From assembly GCF_000317225.1 (NCBI RefSeq), contig NZ_AJLL01000072.1:1-36714 (forward strand): a stretch of 36,714 nt of DNA. Reading direction: 5' to 3'. A program made the translations under genes and the position numbers. This DNA comes from Fischerella thermalis PCC 7521. GTDB taxonomy: Bacteria; Cyanobacteriota; Cyanobacteriia; Cyanobacteriales; Nostocaceae. The notes under the pieces are model-generated. The model had not been told where the DNA came from. It did not search any database and saw nothing but the letters and a program-made list of their open reading frames with translations. Below, piece after piece: positions 27,280-33,371 of the stretch; position 1 is the first letter of the stretch; every line of letters begins with the position of its first letter.

Positions 27280-28176
27280 CTATTGAGAAATCTCTTCGCG
27301 GGATTCAATCACTATTTGCATGGTTTCAATTGCTAAATCACGTAAATCATTGTTCAGAAAAACCACACCATGGGAACCAAACCAGCGATCGAAGATAGTG
27401 GTATATCGTTTGTCACCATCCACAAATCCTTGCATGAACTTGTAGAGAGTATAGTTAACTGAGTCGAGGAATCTGGAGTTATTCTCAGGAACCATACATG
27501 CAATGCCTTCTCTAGAGTAAGGGCGATCGGGTACTACTTGAAAAGCATCAGGGTTTTTCGTTGTTCCTAACCATCCTTCTAACAAGATGCTATCTGATGC
27601 GAAAGCATCTATTTTCCCCTGTTGCAATGCAGCATATCCTTCTGCCCGATCTTTTAAAAAGACTAGTTTAGCTTGGGGTTGTACTCGCTTGAGTGCTAAT
27701 TCATTGGTAGTTTGGCTAAGTACACCAATACGTTTACCAATTAAAGACTCAGGAGAACCTAAATTGCTTCCCTTTTTGACTAATAATTGAGTACCTGTAG
27801 CACCATAACTAAGTGAAAAATCTACTTTTTGATCCCGTTCCCAGGTAAAACTACTCGCATCACAAACAATATCAAGTTGTCCATTAAGAATTTTGGGAAT
27901 CCGTTCTCCTGGTGCTACTGTGACCAATTGTAATTTAATTTTCCTTCCCAGTTGTTTTTCTAATTGTTCTTTAATCAGATTCAACATATCTACGGAATAA
28001 CCAACCAATTTTCCCTGATTATTGGTGTAGGCAAAAGGAATCGCATCTTTGCTCGTGCCTGCTGTCATTACTCCCGTCCGTGCTATTTTTTCCATCACAG
28101 TTTCTGCTTTCGCAACGGCAGGTGTGAATGTTGTTAATAAGAGACTCAAGGTAGTTATTGCCAGTTTTTTATACAT
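27280..28176 (-). CDS. Amino-acid ABC transporter substrate-binding protein (family 3)
   Basis: 298 residues. A Sec signal MYKKLAITTLSLLLTTFTPA with AKA cleavage directs it to the periplasm. The mature part is a type-II periplasmic binding fold of the SBP_bac_3 family: GVMTAGTSKDAIPFAYTNNQ, GKLVGYSVDMLNLI, the arginine-containing CDASSFTWERDQKVDFSLSY and the hinge-region DAFASDSILLEGWL. It would capture glutamate, glutamine or polar amino acids for an importer. No permease or ATPase is beside it, so it is an orphan binding protein or serves a distant transporter. Confidence 0.9.
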   Translation of the reverse strand: MYKKLAITTLSLLLTTFTPAVAKAETVMEKIARTGVMTAGTSKDAIPFAYTNNQGKLVGYSVDMLNLIKEQLEKQLGRKIKLQLVTVAPGERIPKILNGQLDIVCDASSFTWERDQKVDFSLSYGATGTQLLVKKGSNLGSPESLIGKRIGVLSQTTNELALKRVQPQAKLVFLKDRAEGYAALQQGKIDAFASDSILLEGWLGTTKNPDAFQVVPDRPYSREGIACMVPENNSRFLDSVNYTLYKFMQGFVDGDKRYTTIFDRWFGSHGVVFLNNDLRDLAIETMQIVIESREEISQ

Positions 28177-28439
28177 ATTCCATCTGGGAAAGATTGCTTT
28201 TTGTCGGCATATTGTACAAGGATGTTCAAAAGTAGTAAAGTCGCTTTATTTTTTTCCTTAGCTTTGTCAATGTCAAAATTACGGATGCAATTTCTACTTG
28301 ATTAATTGGAATTATAAATTACGTTTTGTTACATTCAACTTAATAATCAATAATCATATTTACCTTGAGATAGATATACAATATCAAGAAATATATGTTA
28401 CTTTGTTGTTTTAAGTAGAGTAAGTCAGCCTAATCTAGC

Positions 28440-28556
28440 GATTGACAACGCTAACGCTGGAGCGGAGGAACCACATTTTGGGGCGTATCTCATACGAGAA
28501 GGGCATCTCTCAGCCCTAGCCCGTCAGCTAACTTCGTAGGCATTGAGAGGAGACTG
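28440..28556 (+). ncRNA. c-di-AMP riboswitch (ydaO/yuaA type)
   Basis: Conserved blocks occur in the right order: CGCTAACGCTGGAGCGGAGG, AACCACATTTTGGGGCGTAT, then a hairpin AGGGC...GCCCT, and near the end AGCCCGTCAGCTAACTTCG, TAGGCATTGAGAGGAG. The CCGTCAGCTAAC...CGTAGGCAUUGAGAGGAG segment is the hallmark 3' part of the ydaO/yuaA class that binds cyclic di-AMP. The element is followed by TTTTTTT right before an ATG (28576), as in a terminator-type expression platform. In known cases it turns off transcription of wall-hydrolase or ion/osmolyte transport genes when c-di-AMP is high. I recognised it by eye; covariance scoring would confirm it. Confidence 0.75.
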
Positions 28557-28586
28557 AAGAGGCAGCATTTTTTTAATGTTTAAACC

Positions 28587-28672
28587 TCATCAGCATCCTT
28601 GGCTGGTACTGCTCAGGTTTTTGTACCTGCACTTAACTCTGTTGAGGTTGCATCTGATGATATTTCAACTGA
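28587..28672 (+). pseudogene. Leader remnant of a secreted protein downstream of the riboswitch
   Basis: In a frame different from the permease, the bases after the riboswitch read SSASLAGTAQVFVPALNSVE, then VASDDIST, which looks like the second half of a signal peptide (AGTAQVFVPA) and a mature N terminus. The frame is closed upstream by TAA at 28581-28583, and the ATG at 28576 is out of frame with it. A small deletion could have shifted an ATG-led signal peptide. Downstream the same frame enters the permease gene antisensically to its reading. I read this as the original riboswitch-controlled gene, now reduced to its leader. Confidence 0.4.
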
Positions 28673-29508
28673 ATTTGGCTGCAATATTTGCAGTCGCTGG
28701 GCAAACAGCTTGGAAAAAGGCAAAACCTTTCGTTCTCAAGGATGTAATCTTATATCCTACTTTGGGATTTTTGGGGATTATCCTCTTGTGGTGGGCGATC
28801 GCCTTAGCAAACCACGAATTGATGCCCACCCCACCAGAAGCACTTGTTGCCAATTTGGATTACATACTAAACCCTTTCTACCAACGTGGACCGGGCAACT
28901 TGGGGATTGGTTGGTTATTACTGGCAAGTATCAGACGAGTATTAATTGGTTTTCTTTTGGGTGCTGTAGTGGCGATTCCTGTAGGATTTTTGATTGGCAT
29001 GTCTAGATCAGCAATGCTAGCGATAAATCCTATCATTCAGATTTTTAAACCTGTGTCGCCTCTAGCTTGGCTACCTATTGCTTTAGCGATATTTAATTTG
29101 GCAGATCCTTCAGCGATTTTTGTGATTTTTATCACTTCTTTGTGGCCAACAATTATTAACACCGCTCTGGGAGTTTCTAGCGTTTCTAAAGATTATTTAG
29201 ATGTAGCGCGAGTATTGGAAATGCCGCGTTGGCGACAGATTACCAAGATTATTTTACCTGCTAGTTTGCCTTACATTTTTACAGGTTTGCGGATTAGTTT
29301 AGGAATTGCTTGGTTAGTAATTGTTGCGGTAGAAATGCTAACAGGTGGTATTGGTATTGGCTTTTTTGTTTGGGATGAATGGAGCCGTTTAAACTTGAGT
29401 TCTGTATTTCTTGCTGTATTGGTGATTGGCTTAACTGGGTTAGTTCTTGATTACGCTGTGGGCAGGCTGCAAGAATTTGTCACCCATCGTCCGAAAACTT
29501 CAACTTAA
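28657..29508 (+). CDS. nrtB: NrtB-type ABC transporter permease (nitrate/bicarbonate/cyanate family)
   Basis: 283 residues from ATG 28657 with a GAGG ribosome-binding-like sequence before it; an in-frame ATG at 28576 would add 27 odd Leu/His-rich residues encoded by the broken upstream gene. About six TM helices (for example YPTLGFLGIILLWWAIAL near 34 and LGAVVAIPVGFLIGM near 105) and the ABC-contact EAA-like loop SKDYLDVARVLEMPRWRQIT (about 180) are present, so the permease is intact. It belongs to the NrtB/CmpB/TauC group. Neighbouring genes for the binding protein and ATPase are broken, leaving it without obvious partners. The symbol is by family. Confidence 0.85.
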   Translation: MIFQLNLAAIFAVAGQTAWKKAKPFVLKDVILYPTLGFLGIILLWWAIALANHELMPTPPEALVANLDYILNPFYQRGPGNLGIGWLLLASIRRVLIGFLLGAVVAIPVGFLIGMSRSAMLAINPIIQIFKPVSPLAWLPIALAIFNLADPSAIFVIFITSLWPTIINTALGVSSVSKDYLDVARVLEMPRWRQITKIILPASLPYIFTGLRISLGIAWLVIVAVEMLTGGIGIGFFVWDEWSRLNLSSVFLAVLVIGLTGLVLDYAVGRLQEFVTHRPKTST

Positions 29509-29567
29509 GCTAGTGATTTATCGCATTAATTTTTGATGGGCTAGATAAAATTACCCTTTTTTCCTCT

Positions 29568-29602
29568 TCTCTTGGCGCACTTGGCGTCTTTGCGGTTTAA
29601 TT
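29568..29602. repeat. CTTGGCGCACTTGGCG repeat, second copy
   Basis: CTCTTGGCGCACTTGGCGTC followed by TTTGCGGTTTAAT, related to 17940-17976, between the permease and the truncated binding-protein gene. Confidence 0.6.
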
Positions 29603-29694
29603 TTAACCCCTCAGAACTAATAAAACAGAACACCACTGCCTAATAACTAAGTCCAATCAACAATTAACAATTCATCTCCTGTGGAGCTAAAGCC

Positions 29695-30195
29695 ATGAGT
29701 AACGCCGACCAAAATTATTGGCATCGACGAGACTTTATTAAGGGAATAGGAGCAACAGCAGCAGGAATGGCGCTCTCTTCCTGTGCAATCTCAGGCGATC
29801 GCTCTGCTAAAGGACTGACGGAAGAAGCTGCGGCTGTCGAACCTGTAGTAAATCCCAAATCTTTAGAAAAACCAAATATTACTGTTGGTTACGTTCCAGT
29901 TAACGACTGTGCGCCCTTTGCGATCGCTTGGAAAAAAGGTTTTTTCCGTAAATATGGATTGAATGTCAAACTCAACCGCGAAGCCAGCTGGGCAACATCC
30001 CGTGACGGACTAATTTTTGGTCGTCTTGATGCCTCCCCTGTAGTATCCGGTGCTGTTACCAACGCCAGAATCGGTGCAACAGTTTTGAAATTAGAGCCAA
30101 CGCTCCCACTCGTTTTTATATGTCTTAATTGTTGGGAGAAAAAAGTTATGGCGATCGCCATCTTGATCACTACAACCAAATTAATGCCTATCTAG
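29695..30195 (+). pseudogene. Truncated NrtA-type substrate-binding protein
   Basis: MSNADQNYWHRRDFIKGIGA has a Tat-like RR motif, followed by a lipobox LSSC; then NITVGYVPVNDCAPFAIAWK, KYGLNVKLNREASWATSRDG and RLDASPVVSGAVTNARIGA are typical for NrtA/CmpA proteins. From about 30078 on, the frame turns into unrelated residues and stops; a normal NrtA-type protein would continue for about 300 residues. A second, out-of-frame fragment (GEKSYGDRHLDHYNQINAYL) is seen at about 30130-30221. Probably a deletion followed by decay. Confidence 0.75.
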
Positions 30196-30270
30196 GCTTT
30201 AGTTTTGACGAAAAAATCTGACCATTTACTTCTAAAAGTATCAATAATTTTTCTAACCTTGGAGCATTTC

Positions 30271-30783
30271 ATGACTAAATCTACCTCTTTTGCTATGGAT
30301 GATAGGCATAAATTGAACAACTCTGCTTTTTTAGAAATAGAAAATTTAGTCAAGTCTTATCCCAAAAATGATGGCGGTGAATTTGTTGTCTTAGATAATG
30401 TCAATCTCACAGTAGGTGAAGATGAATATATTTCTGTAATTGGTCATTCTGGCTGTGGTAAATCAACGCTGTTAAAGATGGATGAACCTTTTGGAGCTTT
30501 AGATGCCTTAACTCGGGGAAAATTGCAGCGCCAAGTTTTAGATATTTGGGAAAATCATCGCCAAGCAGTGATGATGATTACTCATGATGTTGATGAGGCG
30601 ATTTACATGTCAGATCGCATTATTTTAATGACAAATGGCCCAGCTGCTAAAATAGGAGAAATTTTAGAAGTTCCCTTTTCCCATCCACGCGATCGCGCCT
30701 ATATGCGAAACTCAGAAAAATACTACGAACTCCGTAATTATGCGCTAAATTTCCTAGAACGAAATTTTACGACTGATGAATAG
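30271..30783 (+). pseudogene. NrtD-type ABC ATPase with in-frame internal deletion
   Basis: 170 residues from ATG 30271 (GGAG before it). Walker A GHSGCGKSTLLK (about 60-72) is followed directly by the Walker B/D-loop MDEPFGALDALTRGKLQRQV, then the H-loop MITHDVDEAIYMSDRIILMT and a normal NrtD end. The Q-loop, helical domain and LSGG(M/Q) signature between them are missing, about 90 residues compared with intact family members of about 270. The join keeps the frame. Without the signature motif the ATPase cannot function in the usual dimer, so this is a pseudogene or at most a residual nucleotide-binding protein. Confidence 0.8.
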
Positions 30784-30796
30784 TTTTTTGTTAGTA

Positions 30797-30868
30797 GATA
30801 GTAAATAGTAATTTGTTAATTGTTGTTTGTTGTTTGGGAAAACGAACTACCAACAATCAACCAGCAAC
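30797..30868. repeat. TTGTTTGTTGTTTGG...CCAACAATCAACC repeat
   Basis: The third copy of the TTG/CAA palindrome family, filling the gap between the ATPase remnant and the next gene. It also overlaps the false upstream starts of the UspA-like ORF. Confidence 0.5.
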
Positions 30869-30906
30869 TACCCACATCCAATTTTGATTGCAAAGAAGTG
30901 AATGCC

Positions 30907-31551
30907 GTGAATATCAAGCCAATGTTAATGCGTTTGCAAGACGCGATCAATAGAGATGACTTAATTGAGCAAATGTTATTGCACTGTAACCCAATTACAT
31001 CTTTTGTAAAACAAGCTCAATCCGCAAAACCAATCAACTTCATAGTTGGTTATAACAGTTCTCCCAACAGTCACACTGCGTTGGATATTAGTTTATTGAT
31101 TGCTCATCAAACCCGCTTAGCAACAAAATCACATGTGATAGTTCAAGCTGTCTATGTTTTAGAAGAATACCCAACCAATGATTTTTTTGACGTTTTGCCA
31201 ACACAGGATTTTAAAACTAGTGAATCCTTTGAGCAGATTCCAGCATATTGCCCCATCAGTTTACCATCAAAAAATGTTCAAACTACCGTCTTAACTCAAA
31301 CAAATAAATTTGCACAAGCAGAACGTATATTATGGCAAGCACGTTGTCTGGCTGACGAATGGCAAAGTTATTTTAAAGCTCATCTGCGCTTTGGTTGTGT
31401 TGCTGATGAACTAGAGAAAGTTGTTGCATCAGAAACTGCGACTGTGCTGTTTTTAGGTTGTAAATCAGCCAATCATCCGATTGTGCAACAGCTAGGTTCC
31501 CATTTCCCTTGTGCGATCATAGGCATACCTACTAGCATTGATGAAGAATAA
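30907..31551 (+). CDS. UspA-like universal stress domain protein
   Basis: About 214 residues from GTG 30907 (AAGAAG about 8 bases upstream; GTG 30898 is an alternative). The ORF upstream of this lies in repeat DNA. Residues about 45-75 (INFIVGYNSSPNSHTALDIS) are the usual first strand/helix of the UspA fold and the last strand region ATVLFLGCKSANHPIVQQLG fits its nucleotide-binding end, but the Gly-rich GXXG(S/T) loop is not complete. It is followed by a hairpin and precedes a permease gene by about 480 bases; Usp-like proteins often sit by transporters. Confidence 0.7.
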   Translation: MNIKPMLMRLQDAINRDDLIEQMLLHCNPITSFVKQAQSAKPINFIVGYNSSPNSHTALDISLLIAHQTRLATKSHVIVQAVYVLEEYPTNDFFDVLPTQDFKTSESFEQIPAYCPISLPSKNVQTTVLTQTNKFAQAERILWQARCLADEWQSYFKAHLRFGCVADELEKVVASETATVLFLGCKSANHPIVQQLGSHFPCAIIGIPTSIDEE

Positions 31552-31558
31552 AGATTAC

Positions 31559-31620
31559 AGCTTGTAATGAGTGCTAAGTGATAAGAAACTACTACACCTC
31601 TGCTGCACTCACTACAAGCT
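31559..31620 (+). terminator. Hairpin after the UspA-like gene
   Basis: AGCTTGTAATGAGTGC (31559-31574) and GCACTCACTACAAGCT (31605-31620) pair over 15 of 16 bases with a 30-base loop, followed by an AT-rich run. It lies 8 bases after the stop codon. The loop is long for a classical terminator. Confidence 0.5.
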
Positions 31621-32033
31621 TATATAATAGTAATTCGATTTGATTCATTGGTGGAGGTAGGCAAAAGGCACTCTTGCAATAGGAAATAAGACTATTTGAA
31701 ATGTGTTTAGTTTTTTCAAAAAAATAAATAATAATCTTATCTAGTAATTATTTTTGACCTATGTTTAGCTTTATTTAAACACTTAAGTATGTGTTTTTAT
31801 TTTTGCAAATAAAACTTAATTTTTTTATCATTTGTATTTATATATCTGGAAATAATCACTATTTATTATAGTACTATATAAAATTCATCTACAATAGGTG
31901 ACTTTTTCGCTTAATATGCGAATTATTAAATCAGTTATAGTAAATAGTAATCCGCTTTCAAATTTGCATTAGGGATTCAAACTTCCAGCAAAATAAATAA
32001 CTGATAACTGTTAATTTTATCCAGGTGTAGTCT
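31621..32033. other. AT-rich promoter region of the permease gene
   Basis: About 410 bases, very AT-rich, without an ORF. The AATAACTGATAACTGTTA unit (31997-32014) precedes the CCAGGTG ribosome-binding-like site at 32021-32027. No specific operator was recognised. Confidence 0.4.
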
Positions 32034-33371
32034 GTGGAAAACTGGCAAGCTATTCTGAGCATTTTTACTTTTGTTACTGTTATTTTTTTAATCATGACAG
32101 AGTGGATTCATCTAACAATAGCAGCGTTATTAGGTGCTTTGTTATTAGTATTTACCAATGTCATGACATTACAAGAAGCTATTGGCTATATAGGCAGAAG
32201 CCACAGCACAATAGGCTTATTTTTTGGTGTAATGGTACTGGTACGAGCATTTGAGCCGACAAAAATATTTGAGTATTTAGCGACTCAAATTGTACTACTA
32301 GCCAAAGGAGAGGGTAAACGGCTTTTACTCGGTATTGTGGCTATTACTACTCCTATTTGTGCAGTTTTACCTAATGCCACAACAGTAATGTTATTAGCAC
32401 CTTTAATTCCACCAATGGCTGAAGAAGTCGGAGTTAATTTTGTACCATTACTTATTTTAATGGTATTCATAGCTAATAGTGCTGGATTACTAACAATAGT
32501 CGGTGATCCAGCAACGTTTATTGTGGGTGATGCCATCAACCTTAGCTTTATAAATTATCTGGAACGCTTAAGTTTAGGTGGAGCGATCGCTGTTGTTACT
32601 GTAATAGCTACTTTACCATTTTTATTCCGCAAAATTTGGCATACAAAACTAGAAAATCTAGAACAGTTGCCACATCCACAAATTAATCATCCACGTAGTT
32701 TATTCTTAGGAGCATTAATTGTAGCTTTCGTACTACTATTTTTTGTCATCGGAGATTCCTTACCAGTGCCGATTTCACCAGCTGCTGTAGCTTTACTAGG
32801 AGCAGCTTTAGCAATGCTTTTGTCACATCATGGCAAAATAGATTCTGTTAATAATATTTTGCGGGATGTTGATTGGAGTACATTGATATTTTTTATGAGT
32901 ATCTTTGTGCTAATTGGAGGACTAGAAAAAACTGGCGTCATCAACAATTTATCAGGAATTTTGGGAATTGTTTTGGGAAAAAATATTTTTCTGGGTTCAC
33001 TTGTTTTACTATTTTTGATAGGACTATTGTCTAGCGTAGTTCCTAATATTCCTTTAGTAGTGGCAATGGTGCCTTTACTCAAACAGTACGTTGTTAATGT
33101 TGGGTTAGCGCCACCAGAAATTCTGGCGTCAAACTTTCAAGGACAATTTCCGCCAGAGGTATTACCACTGTTTTATGCAATGATGTTTGGTGCTACTTTG
33201 GGAGGCAATGGAACTTTAGTAGGAGCATCGTCTAACATCGTAGCAGCCGGGATTTCTGAACAACACGGACGCCGCATTTCCTTCAAAACTTTTCTGCACT
33301 ACGGTATTCCTATCATGCTATTGCAACTATTTACCGCGTCAGTGTACGTGTTGGTTCGCTTTTTACTCTAG
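32034..33371 (+). CDS. Ion-transporter superfamily permease (ArsB/NhaD/SLC13-like)
   Basis: 445 residues from GTG 32034 with CCAGGTG 7 bases upstream. About 11-12 TM helices are visible. Two inverted repeat halves each carry a conserved 'N-x(T/S)' motif: AVLPNATTVMLLAPLIPPMA with LLTIVGDPATFIVGD, and SSVVPNIPLVVAMVPLLK with GATLGGNGTLVGASSN; these are the ion and substrate sites of the ArsB/CitMHS superfamily. An arsenite, Na+/H+ or dicarboxylate permease is possible, and the sequence alone does not choose. No arsR or other operon partner is near. Confidence 0.85.
   Translation: MENWQAILSIFTFVTVIFLIMTEWIHLTIAALLGALLLVFTNVMTLQEAIGYIGRSHSTIGLFFGVMVLVRAFEPTKIFEYLATQIVLLAKGEGKRLLLGIVAITTPICAVLPNATTVMLLAPLIPPMAEEVGVNFVPLLILMVFIANSAGLLTIVGDPATFIVGDAINLSFINYLERLSLGGAIAVVTVIATLPFLFRKIWHTKLENLEQLPHPQINHPRSLFLGALIVAFVLLFFVIGDSLPVPISPAAVALLGAALAMLLSHHGKIDSVNNILRDVDWSTLIFFMSIFVLIGGLEKTGVINNLSGILGIVLGKNIFLGSLVLLFLIGLLSSVVPNIPLVVAMVPLLKQYVVNVGLAPPEILASNFQGQFPPEVLPLFYAMMFGATLGGNGTLVGASSNIVAAGISEQHGRRISFKTFLHYGIPIMLLQLFTASVYVLVRFLL

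Follow-up and report, generated by a model that had tools for sequence, protein, structure and literature searches.

In RF00379, the c-di-AMP (ydaO/yuaA) class of riboswitch, a pseudoknot joins a hairpin loop to the 3' tail of the aptamer. The member of this class that precedes nlpC in Corynebacterium glutamicum is judged, in the part of PMC9960051 that treats it, to act probably at translation, as indicated by reporter data; it has no canonical terminator, and a CTCC strand is proposed to alternate between an upstream GGAG and the ribosome-binding site as its pairing partner. For cyanobacteria, a portion of PMC10117731 describes slr0753 of Synechocystis as a riboswitch-controlled putative chloride exporter, and suppressor mutations in slr0753 are cited in a portion of PMC9896922. 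Earlier work has thus already described this class of riboswitch, its use by cyanobacteria and a variant that probably acts at translation. Among the papers found, none named an Nrt-type permease as a target of a c-di-AMP riboswitch; Nelson 2013 and Block 2010 may list it, and the nitrate passage in PMC7266159 is about ykkC RNAs.

We analysed a stretch of 36,714 nucleotides from Fischerella thermalis PCC 7521 (contig NZ_AJLL01000072.1), referred to throughout as the window, in which a riboswitch stands before a permease gene of the nitrate/bicarbonate group. We consider it quite probable, taking the explanation as a whole, that this is an ancestral cyanobacterial c-di-AMP riboswitch for an NrtB-type ABC transporter operon, which it would most likely regulate at the level of translation, with switch and permease intact in this strain and the transporter itself incomplete.

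The riboswitch and its pairing with a permease gene

28417..28557, forward strand: c-di-AMP riboswitch aptamer (RF00379), cmscan 79.9 bits against a cut-off of 38
28505-28512 (loop, AUCUCUCA) with 28544-28550 (tail, UGAGAGG), forward strand: aptamer pseudoknot, from pairing across the parsed leaders
28657..29508, forward strand: intact NrtB-type ABC permease gene, TIGR01183 233.5 bits against a cut-off of 209.05

Earlier, a sequence-only reading had proposed a c-di-AMP riboswitch followed by a permease of the nitrate/bicarbonate group, and both identifications are borne out by the scores above, although the span it gave to the element, 28440-28680, begins inside the aptamer. The RF00379 match is complete (model positions 1-134), lies far beyond chance (E 3.4e-17, cmscan) and is the only one in the whole 5.4-Mb genome. 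The pseudoknot and further aptamer elements could be parsed in 73 of 81 leaders (8 of 81 were not parsed), and the pseudoknot forms seven standard pairs in 71 of these 73, with a double change from C-G to U-A in four leaders. The host genome contains one DAC-domain match (129.3 bits against a cut-off of 27), and on the strength of that domain a diadenylate cyclase presumably makes c-di-AMP in this host.

We used the position of the riboswitch relative to the permease gene in other genomes to gauge the age of the arrangement. A scan of named genomes gave 541 relatives of the permease; among the best 80 of these 541, retained by permease similarity, every one (80/80) has the riboswitch core motif immediately upstream of the NrtB-type permease, 119-161 bases from the permease match by motif search. 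In a separate sample of 244 genomes from the phylum, a permease orthologue was found at E values up to 1e-95 in 41, the window's genome included, and in 38 of the 41 the kilobase upstream of it contains an RF00379 match, in one case (G271) below the family cut-off. The three orthologues with no RF00379 match upstream belong to G028, G111 and G054. From this common junction, in 80/80 named loci and 38/41 sampled genomes, we conclude that the riboswitch-permease pairing is old. Taken together, identity and age leave us nearly certain, on comparative grounds, that the element is a genuine and ancient c-di-AMP riboswitch, with ligand binding predicted.

Plasmid pAQ7 of Picosynechococcus PCC 7002 (L181) shows the pairing too: an RF00379 match of 63.9 bits is followed by permease, binding-protein and ATPase genes, in this order, and this plasmid-borne riboswitch and operon sit near siderophore and iron-uptake genes. 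G028 (locus L096) retains just a 5' remnant of the riboswitch before its permease, a case of the reverse kind of loss. A group I intron match (RF00028, 89.2 bits; L011 902-1147, reverse strand) lies near the riboswitch of G010. Transporters of the CitMHS family gave 45 matches in 44 genomes, 30 of them with a riboswitch match within 2.5 kb upstream, and 68 of the 98 riboswitch matches (two of which are below cut-off) could be assigned to a permease or a CitMHS gene.

The stretch between aptamer and start codon

28576..28656, forward strand: leader reading frame proposed earlier, read here as part of the platform and not as a gene (no conserved frame; covarying stems)
28549-28551 with 28596-28598 and 28554-28562 with 28585-28593 (span 28549..28598), forward strand: platform stem A, 99.0% of cells paired in 80 rows
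28602-28609 with 28623-28630 (span 28602..28630), forward strand: platform stem C, 98.0% of cells paired in 80 rows
28644..28648, forward strand: Shine-Dalgarno site GAGGT, from the aligned leaders

The sequence-only reading had taken the interval behind the aptamer for a broken, signal-peptide-like leader gene with the permease ATG inside it, and had suggested that, given read-through transcription, c-di-AMP control of the permease would be a rewired regulation. Two frames are indeed open across 28558-28656 in the window, and no frame is conserved there among relatives. When the permease frame is followed upstream from the permease start, it reaches the aptamer without a stop in 3 of 81 leaders and contains an ATG in 5 of 81, the window counted; in Fischerella muscicola the frame of the window's ATG at 28576 meets a TAA at the third codon. 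The second frame, which by eye resembles a secreted protein, runs for 134 codons in the window. In the 73 relatives in which the anchor for this count was located (7 of 80 without the anchor were left out) all three registers occur, and the frame reaches a stop within 5-44 codons in 63, at 68-82 codons in 6 and after at least 300 in 4. Most relatives begin their permease with M(I/V)(F/L)QLN, which equals the window's position 28657 and not the ATG at 28576. The start at 28657 lies 8 nt downstream of GAGGT, and the Shine-Dalgarno site reads GAGGT in 73 of the 80 aligned leaders, GGGGT in 3 and GAGAT in 1, being absent in 3 whose start is earlier. A leader gene or signal peptide at 28576-28656 is thus rejected, given the non-conservation of the frame and the start of most relatives at 28657.

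In place of a gene, the region 28558-28656 contains two covarying platform hairpins, stems A and C. We aligned 80 distinct permease leaders from the aptamer through the start codon and found 98.6% of the cells of the two stems paired, against 30.8-46.3% with slid partners. One pair of stem A varies among AU, GC and UA, and across both stems there are 19 cells changed on both sides, against 2.8 in shuffles, these being confined to two pairs; for the number of pairs changed and the number of pair types, the 80 permease leaders alone did not exceed shuffles. A covariance model built from this alignment and searched over 41 fetched loci returned 39 matches, in which 15 of 18 pairs show a both-side change, a value equalled by none of 500 shuffles. 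Since the alignment of those 39 matches had been fitted to the model, we realigned 38 of them (one antisense match was dropped) without reference to structure. The structure-blind alignment still gives both-side changes in 12 of 18 pairs and 30 cells; the highest values reached were 9 pairs and 16 cells among 300 shuffles, and 8 pairs and 17 cells among slid partners.

Leaders in L064, L066, L097 and L099 are among the matches of the platform model. In two of these loci a homologous riboswitch and platform precede a GT4 glycosyltransferase gene (L066 15017-16489; L099 7804-9280, reverse strand), possibly an osmolyte enzyme; the L066 protein is MshA-like and sucrose-phosphate-synthase-like at scores below cut-offs. 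Within the 41 loci the model left L092 and L181 unmatched, though both carry the riboswitch and the permease.

Judging from these alignments, the supposed leader reading frame is the riboswitch's own conserved RNA expression platform and not a broken gene, which corrects the reading of an RNA platform as a broken gene. The same data bear on the origin of the arrangement. Had the riboswitch of a secreted-protein gene been joined to the permease by breakage, c-di-AMP control of the permease would be new, and the two open frames of the window, one with the look of a mature secreted protein by eye, would be what such an event might leave behind. We regard this as highly improbable, as the same junction, with no secreted-protein gene between riboswitch and permease, recurs throughout the named loci and in nearly all sampled genomes with the orthologue, and the intervening stretch lacks a conserved frame and covaries as RNA. 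The comparison of related loci, which had been named as the means of deciding the matter, thus speaks against a rewired regulation.

A proposed switching mechanism at the permease start

28583-28593 (anti-Shine-Dalgarno) with 28639-28649 (Shine-Dalgarno region), forward strand: proposed alternative pairing, inferred, with 98.0% of cells paired over 9 pairs

The 3' strand of stem A is an anti-Shine-Dalgarno sequence: 28583-28593 has two complementary partners, 28554-28562 and 28639-28649. From the established elements of the locus (aptamer, pseudoknot, platform hairpins, conserved Shine-Dalgarno site and start codon, and a fixed riboswitch-permease pairing) we infer the following steps. Without c-di-AMP, an extended stem A (28549-28562 with 28585-28598) would sequester the anti-Shine-Dalgarno strand and the permease would be translated. 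With c-di-AMP bound, the aptamer and its pseudoknot would claim the tail at the base of stem A, positions 28549-28550 being common to both structures; the base of stem A would then be lost, the freed strand would pair with GAGGT, and translation would be turned off. Because the anti-Shine-Dalgarno strand could pair within its own hairpin or with the Shine-Dalgarno site, translational OFF control of the permease is the likeliest mechanism, one that we favour at somewhat better than even confidence from the aligned leaders.

The alternative pairing itself shows no both-side change among the aligned leaders, despite its high proportion of paired cells, and the complementarity could follow from the separate conservation of stem A and of the Shine-Dalgarno site. 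We also examined the ligand-driven switch by constrained folding. When the aptamer and pseudoknot were imposed on 71 leaders, Shine-Dalgarno pairing rose by more than 0.1 in 14 and fell in 2, and mean accessibility of the site was near flat (0.176 to 0.170); in the window itself pairing went from 0.03 to 0.00 and accessibility from 0.08 to 0.19, contrary to the model. With the aptamer alone imposed, pairing rose in 1 leader and fell in 3. Overall the ViennaRNA results are mostly flat, backing the alternative pairing weakly over the 71 leaders and not in the window.

Another way in which the hairpins could act is through transcription termination or attenuation, with the covarying stems belonging to a termination switch, as would suit the Bacillus subtilis prototype, which uses terminator formation according to a passage of PMC9960051. 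A consensus scan for terminators was empty between the aptamer end at 28557 and the start at 28657. The three terminator-like sites found in 28100-31000 all lie within 30148-30618, against a chance expectation of 2.8, and in the window neither stem A nor stem C is followed by a run of U. We therefore regard a termination mechanism as unlikely. For the preferred translational reading, the locus and its relatives supply a large comparative set of c-di-AMP riboswitches whose platform is probably translational; PMC9960051 is an experimental report on this mode.

Transporter decay, downstream genes and known systems

29695..30195, forward strand: NrtA/CmpA-like binding-protein gene with a Tat signal, disrupted by a loss of 1018 bp near 30078 that shifts the frame
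30271..30783, forward strand: NrtC/D-like ATPase gene, 324 bp deleted in frame near 30480
30898..31551, forward strand: stress-protein-like gene, 49% identical over 216 residues to L063:7203-7856, itself a PF00582 match
32034..33371, forward strand: CitMHS/ArsB-family transporter gene, PF03600 217 bits

Breakage at this locus affects genes further downstream, those for the binding protein and the ATPase, neither of which the sequence-only reading had mentioned. Of the named relatives found, Fischerella muscicola PCC 7414 (NZ_AJLK01000076) is the nearest; its permease is 99% identical, and it served as the reference for the 1018-bp and 324-bp losses. The ATPase deletion, by our reading of the motifs, sits between Walker A and Walker B. 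Neither a complete binding protein nor a complete ATPase is present in the window, and these two deletions leave the operon short of a complete transporter. Paralogous binding-protein matches show 29-42% identity, and the other full-length permease matches of this genome, among those listed, 40-46%.

The deletions could be assembly errors. Bearing on this doubt, a one-contig Fischerella relative (G002) shows the same type of decay: it keeps the riboswitch (65.2 bits) and the platform (124.1 bits), its permease, binding-protein and ATPase genes exist only in pieces, and past these remnants the stress-protein gene is open (92% over 217 residues) and the CitMHS gene has its full length. In G020, permease similarity stops at codon 78, after which the CitMHS gene follows, and the platform is weaker (62.7 bits).

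With both partner genes damaged, and no complete transporter unless paralogues supply the parts, the riboswitch and permease of the window strain might be functionless leftovers of a dead operon. We give this possibility real weight, at clearly less than an even chance. Against it, the permease differs from that of Fischerella muscicola by 3 non-synonymous and 25 synonymous changes (dN/dS 0.036), though most of these may predate the deletions, and riboswitch and platform are 97.5% identical between the two over 240 bases.

The genes beyond the transporter raise the question of what else the riboswitch may reach. The stress-protein gene, whose product in the window has no Pfam match of its own, was found in 23 of 41 mapped loci, the window counted. 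In 15 of the 23 it has a riboswitch core immediately upstream, a share that is not a frequency because the loci were fetched partly for holding a riboswitch; no such core precedes the gene in the window, L061, L062, L075, L077, L081, L084 and L087. In the window, no second riboswitch was found before the gene at E values up to 1, and 28560-32100 has no Rfam match. None of the four Fischerella loci compared (L061, L062, L081 and the window) has a second riboswitch, and in two of them the ABC genes are decaying. Where the stress-protein gene does have its riboswitch (L063 7009-7856 and similar loci), the platform is a different one, with a hairpin of the GGAACCCCC...TTGGGGTTTCC type and without the TGAGAGG tail. 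The CitMHS gene at 32034-33371 presumably belongs to the slr0753 (putative chloride exporter) family. On the other side of the riboswitch and divergent from it, 27280-28176 (reverse strand) encodes a protein matching TIGR04262, the orphan periplasmic protein GrrP (252.6 bits against a cut-off of 190).

It is conceivable that the riboswitch outlives the transporter and that control passes by deletion to the stress-protein and chloride-exporter-like genes, in a series of which the window would be an early stage, G002 a late stage and G020 a parallel case. The locus data permit such a passage of control and do not demonstrate it, and we think it doubtful; were it true, the surviving upstream riboswitch would govern both downstream genes. 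The locus suggests that the cyanobacterial c-di-AMP regulon may include a branch for anion transport, comprising an Nrt-like ABC transporter, a stress protein and a chloride-exporter-like protein.

Compared with the described systems, the locus resembles NrtABCD/CmpABCD in that the window permease exceeds the TIGR01183 cut-off, the Fischerella muscicola ATPase exceeds that of TIGR01184, and the Fischerella muscicola binding protein matches solved chains of nitrate/bicarbonate transporters, including CmpC and NrtA. Unlike those systems it represents a separate paralogous lineage in the order permease, binding protein, ATPase, with the last two genes broken in the window and a nitrate/bicarbonate type predicted from homology. 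With Synechocystis slr0753, as described in part of PMC10117731, it shares a cyanobacterial c-di-AMP riboswitch before an ion-transporter gene, and a CitMHS-family gene is present in the window locus as well; here, however, the switched gene is an ABC permease, and no separate riboswitch precedes the CitMHS gene in the window. As in the ydaO/yuaA class at large, a full aptamer above the gathering score and a loop-tail pseudoknot are followed by a transporter gene, whereas the window has covarying hairpins and an anti-Shine-Dalgarno strand in place of a terminator, and its target is a cyanobacterial NrtB-type permease. The C. glutamicum nlpC riboswitch, in the account that part of PMC9960051 gives of it, is alike in the absence of a terminator and in the either/or layout proposed for its CTCC strand there and for the anti-Shine-Dalgarno strand here, and differs in gene and in phylum, with reporter data there and comparative support for the upstream hairpin here.
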